Source of the DNA: Comamonadaceae bacterium
GTDB lineage: Bacteria; Pseudomonadota; Gammaproteobacteria; Burkholderiales; Burkholderiaceae_C
DNA: 64,000 nt
Assembly: GCA_027484105.1 (NCBI GenBank)
Contig: JAIXUG010000021.1
Location: forward strand, 1 to 64,000
Direction: 5' to 3'
Shown: positions 54,168 to 60,337 of the stretch, one piece after another
Layout: each line of letters starts with the position of its first letter
Numbering within the stretch: position 1 is the stretch's first letter
Notes under the pieces: generated by a model
Databases searched by the model: none
Told to the model about the DNA's origin: nothing
The model's input: the letters and a program-made list of their open reading frames with translations, nothing else
Position numbers and translations under genes: made by a program

Positions 54168-54629
54168 CTATGGCAAGGATACGCCAACCCAGGCGGGCAG
54201 GGCAGAGACGCTGGAGCGCCACTCGATCTGGTTTTCTCCAGAAGCTTGAGACCCCCAATCCTGGCCAGGCGTGGTGGAAGCGCTGGTGCGGTGCCTGGTT
54301 CGAGGCCAAGTCACGCGCACGGTGAGGTTGATGGTGGGCCCAGCTGAGGCGCTGCTGCTGAAAATCTGACGCGTATAGGGCACGCCTTGAACCACCCGGG
54401 TTTGCGGTGATGGGCAGGCGGTGCTGTGGGTCAGCGGCTGAGCCTGCACGCAATCCATCGCCTCTTGCGCCCAGTGCTGAGCCACAGTGATTTGACGATT
54501 TTCACGGGCTTTTTGAAGGCTCTGGAGTATCAGCTGCGTGGCCCCCACCAAGCCAATTCCCAGCACCGCCGAGGCCATGAGCGCTTCGATCAAGGCCAAG
54601 CCCGCTTGCTGGGAGGTTGGGTGCCTCAT
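54168..54629 (-). CDS. pilV: Type IV minor pilin PilV-like
   Basis: QAGLALIEALMASAVLGIGLVGATQLILQSL prepilin-like N-terminus. Confidence 0.85.
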   Translation of the reverse strand: MRHPTSQQAGLALIEALMASAVLGIGLVGATQLILQSLQKARENRQITVAQHWAQEAMDCVQAQPLTHSTACPSPQTRVVQGVPYTRQIFSSSASAGPTINLTVRVTWPRTRHRTSASTTPGQDWGSQASGENQIEWRSSVSALPAWVGVSLP

Positions 54630-55849
54630 GGCGAACCTTCGCTCCAACTGCCGTTGACGCGCTGCACGCGGGATGCATCCATGCCGTCTGGCCAGTTCAA
54701 GATGTAGGCATCGCGGCCTTGTGGGGTGGCCAACACCGTGCCTGAGCGCCATTCGGGGATACCAGACTCCACCACCAGTTGGCCCTCGATGCGGCCGCCC
54801 TCCCAGCCGCGCATTTTTTCGTCGTTGCAGCCCGAGTCGATCCAGACGCTGCCGATGATCCGCACACCGGCAGCGATGCGGGGGCAGCGTTGGGCGCAAG
54901 CTTTGGCCGAAAAAGCCAGCAAGACGGGAACCTCGGCGGTGCCCACGCTGAGATGCCAATCGTCGGCGCTGTCGATCCAATAGACCGAGCGCGGCGGCTG
55001 GGTGAGGGCGCTCAAACCGTTGCGCTCTTGCGCGCTGGACCAGTCCTGGAGTTGGGTGTCTTCAATTTGACCGAGCACGCTGAATCTGGCACTGCGCTGG
55101 CAGGGGCTGCGGCTGACGTTTGCAGTCGGCCCCACTCGGGTCCCTCCGCCAGGCATGCTGAGCGAACTCAGGGCCATGCAGGACAGCCTTTCGGCGCTGG
55201 AGATGACCCCATTGCGGTTGGTGTCCACCGCAAAAAGGGTGTGAACAACCGGCGCTTTGGCCGGGCCAGTGCAAGACTCGCCCCTGCTGACCAAGGGGCA
55301 GACCCGCAAAGAGGCGCCAGCGGCCTCGCTGATGCACCCATTCACCACCACTGCCGCTGGCGTTGCCAAGCCTGGTGCGGGTGACAAGACGGGAACGAAC
55401 ACGCTTTCGCGCACATGGGCTTGGCTGGCTTGGGTCGTGTGGCTGGCCTTGGCGTGCAAAGTGACCACATGCGGGGACATCAAGAGATCACGCACGGCAA
55501 TGGCCGACAGTTGCCAATCTTGCGCATCGGCAGGCGGGGTCAGGTTCATGGCGCTGCATGCCCATTGCGGGCCTGCCACGCCCGCAGGGCAGGCCGTGCG
55601 GACGGAAAACAGCTGGTTGACAGGGGTGGTGGCCAGCGTGGACTGCGCATGGGCCAATGCCGCCGCCGCTGCCAGCCGAGCTTGGTTGGCGCGCCCGTGG
55701 TTGTGGCTGGCCAATTGGTCAAAATGCACGCTTCGGGCACTGTAAAGACCGGTCAGGCTGGCCAGAATCACCAGACTCACGGCCACCATCAAAGTGACAG
55801 CGCCTTGTTGCTCCGCAATGCCCGTGTGCGGCTGCATGGCTGAATTCAT
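54626..55849 (-). CDS. Type IV minor pilin PilX-like, enlarged (about 407 aa)
   Basis: QQGAVTLMVAVSLVILASLTGLYSARSV hydrophobic N-terminus; position between PilW- and PilV-like genes; EF-hand-like loop DTNRNGVISSAE. Confidence 0.75.
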   Translation of the reverse strand: MNSAMQPHTGIAEQQGAVTLMVAVSLVILASLTGLYSARSVHFDQLASHNHGRANQARLAAAAALAHAQSTLATTPVNQLFSVRTACPAGVAGPQWACSAMNLTPPADAQDWQLSAIAVRDLLMSPHVVTLHAKASHTTQASQAHVRESVFVPVLSPAPGLATPAAVVVNGCISEAAGASLRVCPLVSRGESCTGPAKAPVVHTLFAVDTNRNGVISSAERLSCMALSSLSMPGGGTRVGPTANVSRSPCQRSARFSVLGQIEDTQLQDWSSAQERNGLSALTQPPRSVYWIDSADDWHLSVGTAEVPVLLAFSAKACAQRCPRIAAGVRIIGSVWIDSGCNDEKMRGWEGGRIEGQLVVESGIPEWRSGTVLATPQGRDAYILNWPDGMDASRVQRVNGSWSEGSP

Positions 55850-56469
55850 GGGCAAAACAGCGCTTGCTGGCTGCCGGGCAGATCGTTGCGCAAGTGCACG
55901 GTGTTGGACAGGCTGATCTGGCGCGATGCATCTCCAGGCCATTGGGCCTTCAAGCTCATCAAAACGCTTCGACGCAGCCAGTTTTCGTGAAGTTCGCAGC
56001 GCAGTTGCCAACGCAGTTCGGTGATCTGCAAATGTTGGCTGTCGGTGATCGACAGCCAGTCTCCACTGGGGTTGCACGACCGTTTGGCTTGCAATGCGGT
56101 GCCTGACAACCTGAACCCCATGCACTCATCCTGGTCTTGCTGGCCGTTGTGGTTGCGGTCGTGACTGAAGTCGATCCAGTCATCCTCGATGCTGAAGTCC
56201 TCCAGGCCATCACAAAAAGTGTCGTCGCAGGCTGTGGGTGAGCGTGTCTCCCAGGCCTGGGCCGAATACTGGGCTTTTCTCAGTTCGCGGGCCATCCAGT
56301 CCACTGCTTGGCGAAGCTCATGGTGCAGATGGCTGTCCAGCAAGGCCGTGCGATGCCCCCGCAACTGGTTGGCCAGCATGGCGGTGCCGGCTGCCAGCAC
56401 CATCAAGCCAACCGACAAGCCCACCATGAGGCCCATCATGGTTTCCCCCCGCTCGTTCGGCGTGGTCAT
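55846..56469 (-). CDS. pilW: Type IV minor pilin PilW-like
   Basis: RGETMMGLMVGLSVGLMVLAAGTAMLANQLRGHR. Confidence 0.82.
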   Translation of the reverse strand: MTTPNERGETMMGLMVGLSVGLMVLAAGTAMLANQLRGHRTALLDSHLHHELRQAVDWMARELRKAQYSAQAWETRSPTACDDTFCDGLEDFSIEDDWIDFSHDRNHNGQQDQDECMGFRLSGTALQAKRSCNPSGDWLSITDSQHLQITELRWQLRCELHENWLRRSVLMSLKAQWPGDASRQISLSNTVHLRNDLPGSQQALFCP

Positions 56470-56474
56470 GGGTC

Positions 56475-56900
56475 TTACTTCCGCCAGCACCGGGCCGGAT
56501 CGCTGTCGGGCGATGGACCCGAGCCCAGCCACACCTGGGCACCGCCCAGTGAGCGCAAGAACAGGGACGAGCATTCGCGGTCAGTCGCTTGGGCACCCAG
56601 GGCCATGGCCTGTGCGGTGTAGCCTTGAGGTGAGGCCTCCAGCAATTGGATGCGGTAATGGCCTGCAGGCGAAAGGTCGCTGCGCCAGCCCAAGGTGCCG
56701 AGACTGTCTGCGTGGCTGTCGTTGGTGCTGCGCCAGCGTTCCTGGTCGGTTTGCAGTTGCAGCAAGGCGGCTTGGCCGTCGTGGCGACGGGCCTGCAGTT
56801 GTTGTTTTTGGTAAGCGGGCAGGGCCAGAGCGCTCAGCACCCCCAAGAGCGCCAAACAGACCAACATCTCCGTCAAGGTCCAACCCTGGTGCTGACCCAT
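56475..56900 (-). CDS. Type IV pilin PilE-like
   Basis: HQGWTLTEMLVCLALLGVLSALALPAYQKQQLQARRHDGQAALLQLQ. Confidence 0.88.
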   Translation of the reverse strand: MGQHQGWTLTEMLVCLALLGVLSALALPAYQKQQLQARRHDGQAALLQLQTDQERWRSTNDSHADSLGTLGWRSDLSPAGHYRIQLLEASPQGYTAQAMALGAQATDRECSSLFLRSLGGAQVWLGSGPSPDSDPARCWRK

Positions 56901-57039
56901 GCCATTTTTCTGGACAAGGATGCGAGGGCTGGGGGGATCGGGCTGGATGGATGGCTCTGGCATCAGCGGTCTCCGGTTGCTTGTTTGGATTGTGTTCTTT
57001 TGTATTCATCTTGTACAGTCCATCGTGGGCCACTCTCTC

Positions 57040-57615
57040 ATGAACCGTCCTTGCAAACCCTCCACCCAGCGCCGTGACAAGTGCAAGCTTCAGGGCTTGA
57101 CCTTGTTGGAAGCCTTGGTGGTCATGGCTGTGCTGGCTGTGTTGCTGAGCCTGGCTGCACCCGCCATGACGGGCATGCGGGCGCGGCATCAGTTGCAAAG
57201 CCAAGCCGAGGCTTTTTTGGACAGCATGGTGGTGGCCCGTTCCGAAGCCTTGCGGCGTCAGCAGCGGGTGGGTGTGTGCGCTCGGGGCGAATCAGACAGC
57301 TGCGATGCCAGCGCTCGGTGGCATCAAGGTTGGTTGGTGTTTGTAGACAGCAACAACAGTGGTTGGCGTGAGGCCGGGGAAGTCTTGATCGAGGCGCGCG
57401 AAGCGGTGCCAAAGGGGGTGACGGTGAGTGTCACCAACACGGTCAAAACCTATTACGCTTACAACAGTGAAGGCCGCAGTGCCAGTGTCAGCGGTGCTTT
57501 CATGGCCGGAACTTGGCGATTTTGCAGCACCACATCACCGCAAGGCTGGCAAGTGGTGGCCAATGCCTTGGGCAAGCCCCGAATTGAGGCGTATCCGGTG
57601 GCGCAGTGCCCCTGA
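57040..57615 (+). CDS. GspH/FimT family pseudopilin
   Basis: LQGLTLLEALVVMAVLAVLLSLAAPAM; WLVFVDSNNSGWREAGEVL. Confidence 0.9.
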   Translation: MNRPCKPSTQRRDKCKLQGLTLLEALVVMAVLAVLLSLAAPAMTGMRARHQLQSQAEAFLDSMVVARSEALRRQQRVGVCARGESDSCDASARWHQGWLVFVDSNNSGWREAGEVLIEAREAVPKGVTVSVTNTVKTYYAYNSEGRSASVSGAFMAGTWRFCSTTSPQGWQVVANALGKPRIEAYPVAQCP

Positions 57616-57639
57616 GGCCTCAGTGCCGTCGGGCGCAGT

Positions 57640-58089
57640 TCAACTTTGCACCTCGTCCACCAGGGTTTTGAATGCATCGATGTCTTCAAAATTCCGGTAG
57701 ACGCTGGCAAAACGCACATAAGCCACTTTGTCGAGTTTTTTCAACTCGCGCATGACGAGTTCACCCAAGCGGTGAGAGGCCACTTCTCGGTCACCCAAGT
57801 TGAGGAGTTTTTCTTCGATCCGCTCGATCGCGCTGTCCACCTGCTCGGTGCTGACTGGCCGTTTGCGCAGGGCCAGGTTCAGGCTGGCGCGGAGTTTGTC
57901 TCGCTGGTAGTCGATGCGCCGACCATCTTTTTTGACGATGGCCGGGAAGTTGACCTCTGGTTTTTCATAGGTGGTGAAGCGCTTTTCACACGCCCCACAT
58001 TGGCGTCGGCGTCGGATGAAATCCCCGTCCTCGGCCAGCCGCGTCTCCACCACTTGGGTTTCGAGGTGGCCGCAGAAGGGGCATTTCAT
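57640..58089 (-). CDS. nrdR: Transcriptional repressor NrdR
   Basis: [17 protein letters not shown]...[17 protein letters not shown] zinc ribbon and ATP cone. Confidence 0.98.
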
Positions 58090-58101
58090 GTCAGTGTCCG
58101 A

Positions 58102-59346
58102 TCAGCCGTAGACGGGGAAGCGGCTGGTGAGCGCGTGCACCTTGGCGCGCACGGCTGCGATGTTGGCTTCGTCGAGTGGGTTGTCGAGCACGTCGGCGAT
58201 CAGGTGGGCGGTGGCGCGGGCCTCTTCGTCTTTGAAGCCACGGGTGGTCATGGCGGGGGTGCCGATGCGCACGCCACTGGTCACAAACGGCTTTTCGGGG
58301 TCGTTCGGGATGGCGTTCTTGTTGATCGTCATGTGGGCGTTGCCCAAAGCGGCTTCGGCCACCTTGCCGGTGATGCCCTTGGAGCGAAGGTCGACCAGCA
58401 TAACGTGGCTTTGGGTGCCGCCGCTGACGATGCGCAGGCCGCGAGCGGTCAAGGTCTCGGCAATGATTTGGGCGTTCTTGATCACTTGGGCTTGGTAGGC
58501 CTTGAACTCAGGTGCCAGCGCCTCTTTGAAAGCCACGGCCTTGGCCGCGATCACGTGCATCAGCGGGCCGCCTTGCAGGCCTGGGAAGATGGCGCTGTTG
58601 ATGGCTTTTTCGTGCTCGGCCTTCATCAAGATGATGCCGCCGCGTGGGCCGCGCAAACTCTTGTGCGTGGTCGAAGTCACCACATCGGCGTGCGGCACCG
58701 GGTTGGGGTACACCCCTGCGGCAATCAAGCCAGCGTAATGGGCCATGTCGACCAAGAAGATCGCGCCTACTTCTTTGGCTACTTTGGCAAAGCGGGCCCA
58801 GTCGATGTGCAGCGAGTAGGCCGAAGCGCCCGCGATGATGAGTTTCGGCTTGGTCTCACGCGCCTTGGCTTCCATGGCCTCATAGTCGATGGCCTCGTTC
58901 TTGTCCAAGCCGTAGGAGACCACGTTGAACCACTTGCCCGACATGTTCAGCGGCATGCCGTGGGTGAGGTGGCCGCCTTCGGCCAGGCTCATGCCCATGA
59001 TGGTGTCGCCGGGCTTTAAGAAAGCCAAAAACACGGCTTCGTTGGCCGAGGCGCCGCAGTGCGGCTGCACGTTGGCGGCTTCGGCGCCAAAAATTTGTTT
59101 GATGCGGTCGATGGCCAACTGCTCGGCCACGTCGACGAATTCGCAGCCACCGTAGTAGCGCTTGCCGGGGTAGCCTTCGGCGTATTTGTTGGTGAGCTGG
59201 CTGCCTTGGGCGGCCATGACGGCGGGCGAGGCGTAGTTCTCGCTGGCGATCAGCTCGATGTGGTGTTCTTGGCGAGCGTTCTCGGCCTGGATGGCGGCGA
59301 ACAGCTCGGGATCGGTTTGTTCAATCAGGTGGTTGCGGTGGTACAT
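58102..59346 (-). CDS. glyA: Serine hydroxymethyltransferase
   Basis: [56 protein letters not shown]. Confidence 0.98.
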
Positions 59347-59394
59347 GGCAGTCCTTCGGATGATGGAACCTTGGCATGAAAGACAAGGGCTGCC
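59347..59394 (-). promoter_or_regulatory. Predicted SD-sequestering expression platform of the glyA riboswitch
   Basis: Minus strand GGCAGCCCUU (59394-59385) pairs with AAGGACUGCC (59356-59347) adjacent to the ATG, 9 of 10 positions. Confidence 0.6.
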
Positions 59395-59546
59395 CAGGCG
59401 AACGGCTTCAAGCTTGCCTGACAACAGTCTCAGACCCGCTGTGCGCTTCCCAGTGGTTCTGGGGCGACTTTGCAATCGCCACGCTCCACGTCAGAGTGGT
59501 CTGTTTTGACTACAAAACAGGCTCCTATCGCCAGTCGCGCACCCCG
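59388..59546 (-). ncRNA. ZTP (pfl) riboswitch upstream of glyA
   Basis: Minus strand GUGCGC-GACUGGCGA ... ACGUGGA ... ACCACUGGGAAGCGCAC ... GCCGUUCGCCUGGGCA; P1 GUGCGC/GCGCAC and pseudoknot GGCG/CGCC visible. Confidence 0.88.
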
Positions 59547-59590
59547 AGAGTGTAGCCCAGACGAAGTCCGGATTGACCGGCTCAAGGCGG

Positions 59591-60337
59591 TTACAGCCGG
59601 CTGTTTGGCGTTACTTGCGCGCTTTTGGGCAACTGGGTCATGGTTTCCAGTTGTTTTTGTTCGGCCAGCACACGATGGACGTAATCCAGGCCGTTGCTTT
59701 GTCCGGTGGCCAAAGCGTAAAGCTGCAGGGCTGCCTCGACCGAGGCGCTTTGTTCGATCAGGGCTTGTAAATGCCGGGCTCCCACACGCAGATTGGTCAG
59801 CGGGTCAAACGCCGCCAAAGGGCCGCCGTAGGGCAGCAGGGCACGGTGTTGGGCTTCAGGCTCGATTTGCATCAGGCCCATGCCGCCTTGGGGGCTTGAG
59901 GCGAAGGGGTTGAACCGGGATTCGATGGCAATCACGGCCAAAAGCAAAGTGGGTGAGACCTGAATCCGGTCACCCACTGTCCAGGCTTCGTGGACCAAAG
60001 CCCCCAGGGGTTCGGGCGACACCTTGTACCTTCGGCTCAGCCAGCGGGTCACAGCCGCCTGTTCTTCGCTGAGTGTTCCCGCAGGCATGATGGGCAAAGC
60101 CGAGACCACGGGGTCATCGGCGGTTGGTGTTTCAGTGTTTGCCACGGCGTCGTGCCGAGACTCCAGCCAGCCCAGCAAACGTTCACTGGCGCTGAGCCGC
60201 CAATCGGGTTGGCTGGCAAACACCAGCAGCAGAGCCAAACACACCGTGCCAAACAAGGCCAGGCTGTGTCGGGTGATGTTGAGCAGGCCCCAATTCAAGC
60301 GCGTCTGAAGAGACCGGATTTTCAATTGGACAGTCAC
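59591..60337 (-). CDS. Lytic transglycosylase (SLT domain)
   Basis: LLAVIAIESRFNPFASSPQGGMGLMQIEPEAQ. Confidence 0.93.
   Translation of the reverse strand: MTVQLKIRSLQTRLNWGLLNITRHSLALFGTVCLALLLVFASQPDWRLSASERLLGWLESRHDAVANTETPTADDPVVSALPIMPAGTLSEEQAAVTRWLSRRYKVSPEPLGALVHEAWTVGDRIQVSPTLLLAVIAIESRFNPFASSPQGGMGLMQIEPEAQHRALLPYGGPLAAFDPLTNLRVGARHLQALIEQSASVEAALQLYALATGQSNGLDYVHRVLAEQKQLETMTQLPKSAQVTPNSRL

Follow-up and report, generated by a model that had tools for sequence, protein, structure and literature searches.

The window analyzed here is the whole 64,000-nt stretch of contig DNA from a Comamonadaceae bacterium. On its minus strand, glyA (58102-59346, with the ATG at 59344-59346) encodes a serine hydroxymethyltransferase of 414 aa; the match to NF000586.1 (649 bits, cut-off 335) bears out the preliminary description of this DNA, which had named glyA as the partner gene of the leader RNA considered below. 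The nrdR gene (57640-58089, minus strand; TIGR00244, 186 bits, cut-off 124.65) starts 12 nt past glyA in the same orientation, and the two genes are probably carried on one transcript. The product of nrdR, a ribonucleotide reductase regulator, may also be affected by the riboswitch. Just downstream of nrdR lie open reading frames (56475-56963 and 54168-56574 on the minus strand, 56899-57615 on the plus strand) whose N termini, by eye, have the look of type IV pilins or pseudopilins.

The glyA leader had been assigned to the ZTP riboswitch class. A covariance scan with RF01750 (ZMP/ZTP riboswitch), named in that description as a check, placed a 164-nt aptamer at 59385-59548 on the minus strand, to which all coordinates of leader features refer, with a score of 40.7 bits against a curated gathering score of 39 and an E value of 0.0032 against the whole Rfam library. 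The 3' end of the aptamer lies ~40 nt upstream of the glyA start. This is the single RF01750 copy above the cut-off in the whole 3.1-Mb genome, no other cis-regulatory RNA was detected in the window by the Rfam scan, and the leader folds with a z score of -2.19 relative to shuffled sequences. What riboswitches of the ZMP/ZTP class sense is an intermediate of purine synthesis. The class was reportedly validated by Kim et al. in 2015.

Every motif quoted in the preliminary description was found at its minus-strand position. P1, in which GUGCGC (59537-59542) pairs with GCGCAC (59441-59446), is followed by J1/2 and P2 (GUGG/CCAC, 59453-59489, strands 59489-59486 and 59456-59453) in a helix-junction-helix arrangement with GACUGGCG. 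P3 and its pseudoknot loop, GCCGUUCGCCUGGGC (59392-59406), contain CGCCUGGGC together with CGCC (59397-59400), the complement of GGCG (59529-59532). The P1, pseudoknot, P2, and P3 positions are kept in 33/33 Limnohabitans leaders. In the alignment of these leaders, 99.5% of the P1 cells are paired, with a GC-to-AU change on both strands in six sequences, while GGCG and the P3 elements are invariant in all 33, so that the pseudoknot pairing carries no covariation information. The RNA stands, as members of this class do, upstream of a purine or one-carbon gene, here glyA.

We infer that the window comes from Limnohabitans, a freshwater bacterium, because a pattern for the expanded form of the aptamer, scanned against named genomes, matched 54 stretches; by far most of those with a name belonged to Limnohabitans or to Comamonadaceae or Burkholderiales metagenome bins. 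The riboswitch precedes glyA in 33 of 36 Limnohabitans genomes. Across the family, RF01750 matched in 260 of 301 genomes, and 125 of 141 genera had a match. These counts are lower bounds: four family genomes that gave no Rfam match contain exact GCCGTTCGCCTGGGCAG sites, and these sites lie in glyA leaders carrying large inserts. The family glyA leaders L225, L226, L231, and L233 have large P2, J1/2, or linker inserts and are not listed by the family-level Rfam search at an E value of 0.1. P3 alone was discarded as a search pattern because it occurs too often in GC-rich DNA. An even sampling of the phylum gave a match in 21 of 299 genomes, and outside the family the matched RNAs were 80 to 126 nt long, mostly 80 to 107 nt. 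Because the Rfam score exceeds the cut-off and the RNA recurs before glyA in the genus and the family, the match is more than a chance resemblance; judged by its sequence, the glyA leader is a genuine member of the ZMP/ZTP riboswitch class, and ZMP/ZTP is its presumed ligand.

At about twice the 86-nt consensus length, the aptamer owes its size to inserts in the junction, the P2 loop, and the linker, which are the known variable regions of the class. For comparison, 149 leaders, 33 from Limnohabitans and 116 others, were cut at conserved anchors. The median J1/2 insert is 42 nt in Limnohabitans and 35 nt in the other leaders, and the linker between P1 and P3 measures 42 and 32 nt, respectively. 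The P2 loop spans 24 to 36 nt in 33/33 Limnohabitans leaders compared to a median of 4 nt in the others, where it reaches at least 20 nt in just 8 of 116, a rough frequency given that these leaders were mostly high-scoring matches plus some picked for length. A quick tree indicated that the P2 extension has changed about nine times.

Two extra hairpins had been proposed to enlarge the periphery, and both are supported by folding relative to shuffled sequences and by paired substitutions: the J1/2 hairpin (59494-59524), with its closing helix (59524-59522/59496-59494) and distal stem CUGUUUUG-UAGU-CAAAACAG (59501-59520), and the P2 extension hairpin GGCGAUU-GCAA-AGUCGCC (59463-59480), in which 5 of 7 pairs have changed on both sides. 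A third hairpin, in the P1-P3 linker (59439-59412; GC-gg-GUCUG ... CAGGC-aa-GC), had been overlooked, and the expansion is not specific to this locus. Across the family, pairs in the J1/2 closing helix and in the linker helix often swap among G-C, C-G, A-U, and U-A, with the expected diagonal the most enriched by far. One J1/2 closing pair is C-G in 61 leaders and G-C in 40, only the correct diagonal being enriched, and one linker pair is GC in 31, CG in 25, AT in 21, and TA in 7; the window's own linker hairpin is an irregular version. The three inserts fold better than dinucleotide shuffles, with a mean z score of about -2 in the genus; in other genera, the linker and J1/2 inserts gave z scores of -2.4 to -2.6. 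Over the genus alignment, 82.7% of the pairs in the aptamer structure are standard ones, compared to 33 to 44% when the structure is slid along the alignment, and the covariation score is 0.235, compared to 0.142 ± 0.008 for shuffled alignments. The comparison thus assigns the J1/2 and linker hairpins to the family as a whole and the P2 extension, rare elsewhere, to Limnohabitans. These accessory hairpins probably serve to stabilize the fold of the aptamer or to tune it.

A continuous GGCAGCCCUU/AAGGACUGCC duplex that directly sequesters the Shine-Dalgarno (SD) sequence in the OFF state was the switch originally put forward. The complement does exist: GGCAGCCCTT (59385-59394), at the 3' end of the aptamer, pairs with AAGGACTGCC (59347-59356) at 9 of 10 positions in the window, with one C.A mismatch, and 98.6% of the cells of this duplex are paired in the genus. 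Its GGCAG/CUGCC half is conserved. GGCAG (59390-59394) contributes its GGC to the P3 3' strand, followed by AG as a possible toehold; CUGCC (59347-59351) lies between the SD, AAGGA (59352-59356), and the AUG. Both strands are invariant in 33/33 Limnohabitans leaders, and RNAalifold proposed the same pairing independently. Of 134 leaders in which AG still follows P3, 114 have CUGCC before the start; of 12 that have lost AG, none does. This association reflects few independent events (three on supported branches, nine on all) and never runs in the opposite direction. A search of the leader comparison for compensatory changes in GGCAG/CUGCC found none, only joint loss; within the genus, none could appear, because both strands are invariant there.

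The CCUU/AAGG half of the duplex, in contrast, has no comparative support. CCUU belongs to a segment, CCUUG, that can instead pair with CAAGG in a hairpin, P4 (59369-59388), enclosed by the clamp strands. In partner-swap comparisons, whose figures still contain shared ancestry, at least 5 of 6 P4 pairs form in 94 of 111 family leaders, compared to 64.5 ± 3.7 with partners swapped, and of 71 leaders with a variant CCUU, 57 pair with the intervening segment (37.1 ± 3.2 expected) while 7 pair with the SD region (7.0 expected). Folding likewise favors the clamp plus P4, and we consider the continuous duplex unlikely. Since GGCAG/CUGCC is conserved as a unit while CCUUG follows the intervening segment, the best model for the expression platform is a predicted 5-bp GGCAG/CUGCC clamp around P4, in which CCUU would pair with CAAGG and not with the SD. 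No description of such a platform was found in the ZTP literature surveyed, whose scope did not extend to Kim et al. 2015, and we make no claim of first description. RNAalifold also suggested pairing of the P1 5' strand with the start codon region (swap z score of 8.0); this candidate was rejected as probably due to shared ancestry, since P1 changes do not track start changes on the tree. It is conceivable, if doubtful, that Limnohabitans has an enlarged subtype whose J1/2, P2-extension, and linker hairpins take part in added tertiary contacts that tune affinity or folding speed, in combination with the family-wide CUGCC translational platform.

Immediately upstream of the aptamer is a -10-like hexamer, TACACT (59549-59554), which lies at a conserved spacing of 19 to 20 nt before ACUGGCG in 33/33 genus leaders; a -10-like hexamer occupies a similar place in 110 of 116 other family leaders. 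A promoter scan detected no -35/-10 consensus promoter, and TACACT has no recognizable -35 element. Transcription probably starts close to the first bases of P1, and the aptamer would then form the very 5' end of the transcript.

We think it likely that the glyA(-nrdR) transcript begins with a ZMP/ZTP-sensing leader that acts as a translational ON switch. This reading is plausible rather than demonstrated, and we infer both which way the switch acts and that translation is the step under control. Transcription would start at or just before P1, after which P1-P2 and P3 would dock via the GGCG/CGCC pseudoknot and bind ZMP/ZTP. Without the ligand, the late-transcribed CUGCC would pair with GGCAG, opening the P3 3' strand from the AG toehold, and the clamp closed over P4 would hold the start region shut. 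With the ligand, P3 and the pseudoknot would resist displacement, leaving the SD and AUG open for GlyA synthesis. The clamp and the ligand-binding fold are mutually exclusive because the GGC of GGCAG is the P3 3' strand, and this sharing of an aptamer strand with the helix that closes the ribosome-binding site is conserved. Such a switch would make physiological sense: ZMP/ZTP accumulates under a shortage of 10-formyl-THF, and GlyA is a source of one-carbon units (PMC2864571, PMC7266159).

When the region from P3 to the start was folded locally with P3 locked, the mean unpaired fraction of the ribosome-binding site rose from 0.42 to 0.60 in the genus, with an increase in 33/33 leaders, and from 0.41 to 0.59 in 81 other leaders with CUGCC, compared to only 0.56 to 0.60 in 32 leaders without CUGCC. 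Full-length folding with P2 and P3 locked gave no gain in SD accessibility (0.33 to 0.34), in a model that lacks the pseudoknot and ligand, permits false long-range pairs, and leaves P1 free to mispair. Other points against the switch model are the clamp length of only 5 bp and the chance that, with or without ligand, a local hairpin covers the SD. In predicted folds, a local hairpin, UCCAUC-AUCC-GAAGGA (59352-59367), can itself cover the SD through UCC (59367-59365), and several relatives retain some pairing there.

Rho acts on long untranslated leaders, and a block in translation often gives polarity. A genuine riboswitch could on these grounds control transcription, through Rho-dependent termination or RNA decay, and not initiation directly. 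We regard this as quite improbable: CUGCC sits between the SD and the AUG, a place suited to translational control, and a scan of the minus strand over 57600-59750 detected no terminator-like site, in agreement with the absence of a U-run noted in the preliminary description. The translational switch remains our preferred reading. With 14 of 33 genus copies below the Rfam cut-off (19 lie above it), one might suspect that this enlarged RNA has decayed or shifted its ligand and no longer senses ZMP/ZTP, but this is very improbable: the long inserts suffice to explain the low scores, none of the 33 sequences departs from the others at the class-defining positions, and paired changes have kept the helices intact. 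Routine annotation would miss these 14 Limnohabitans copies.

Both the class and its gene partner are known, and what distinguishes this leader is a lineage-specific elaboration; the association of the pfl motif (RF01750) with glyA was already listed by Weinberg et al. in 2010 (PMC2864571). Our analysis adds the family-wide anatomy, a corrected switch, the genus-specific P2 extension, and the under-calling of this group by Rfam. The window copy has P1-J1/2-P2, the linker, P3, and the GGCG/CGCC pseudoknot in common with the pfl motif and departs from the consensus by its hairpins in J1/2, the P2 loop, and the P1-P3 linker, the last of which has been described as variable in sequence within the class (PMC10085676). 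A close known case is Hsnc029 of Herbaspirillum seropedicae, a betaproteobacterium, which belongs to the same class and precedes the same gene, glyA, but is ~100 nt long (59.3 bits), without inserts as large as those of the window copy (PMC7011215). In the ligand-free Clostridium beijerinckii pfl riboswitch, a platform strand invades P3 on its 3' side (PMC10085676), the scheme that we propose here; there, however, the invader builds an intrinsic terminator, whereas here CUGCC lies between the SD and the AUG and no terminator was found. A translational lacZ fusion to the ZTP riboswitch of Pectobacterium carotovorum is induced by antifolates and responds to trimethoprim (PMC10117056); that organism belongs to another lineage, and the comparison made here concerns the type of reporter. 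The models of ZTP switching drawn on here, structural and kinetic, derive from transcriptional members. With their single conserved platform, the many glyA leaders of this family are natural and apparently translational counterparts, which allow strand invasion at a start codon to be compared with terminator formation inside one aptamer class.
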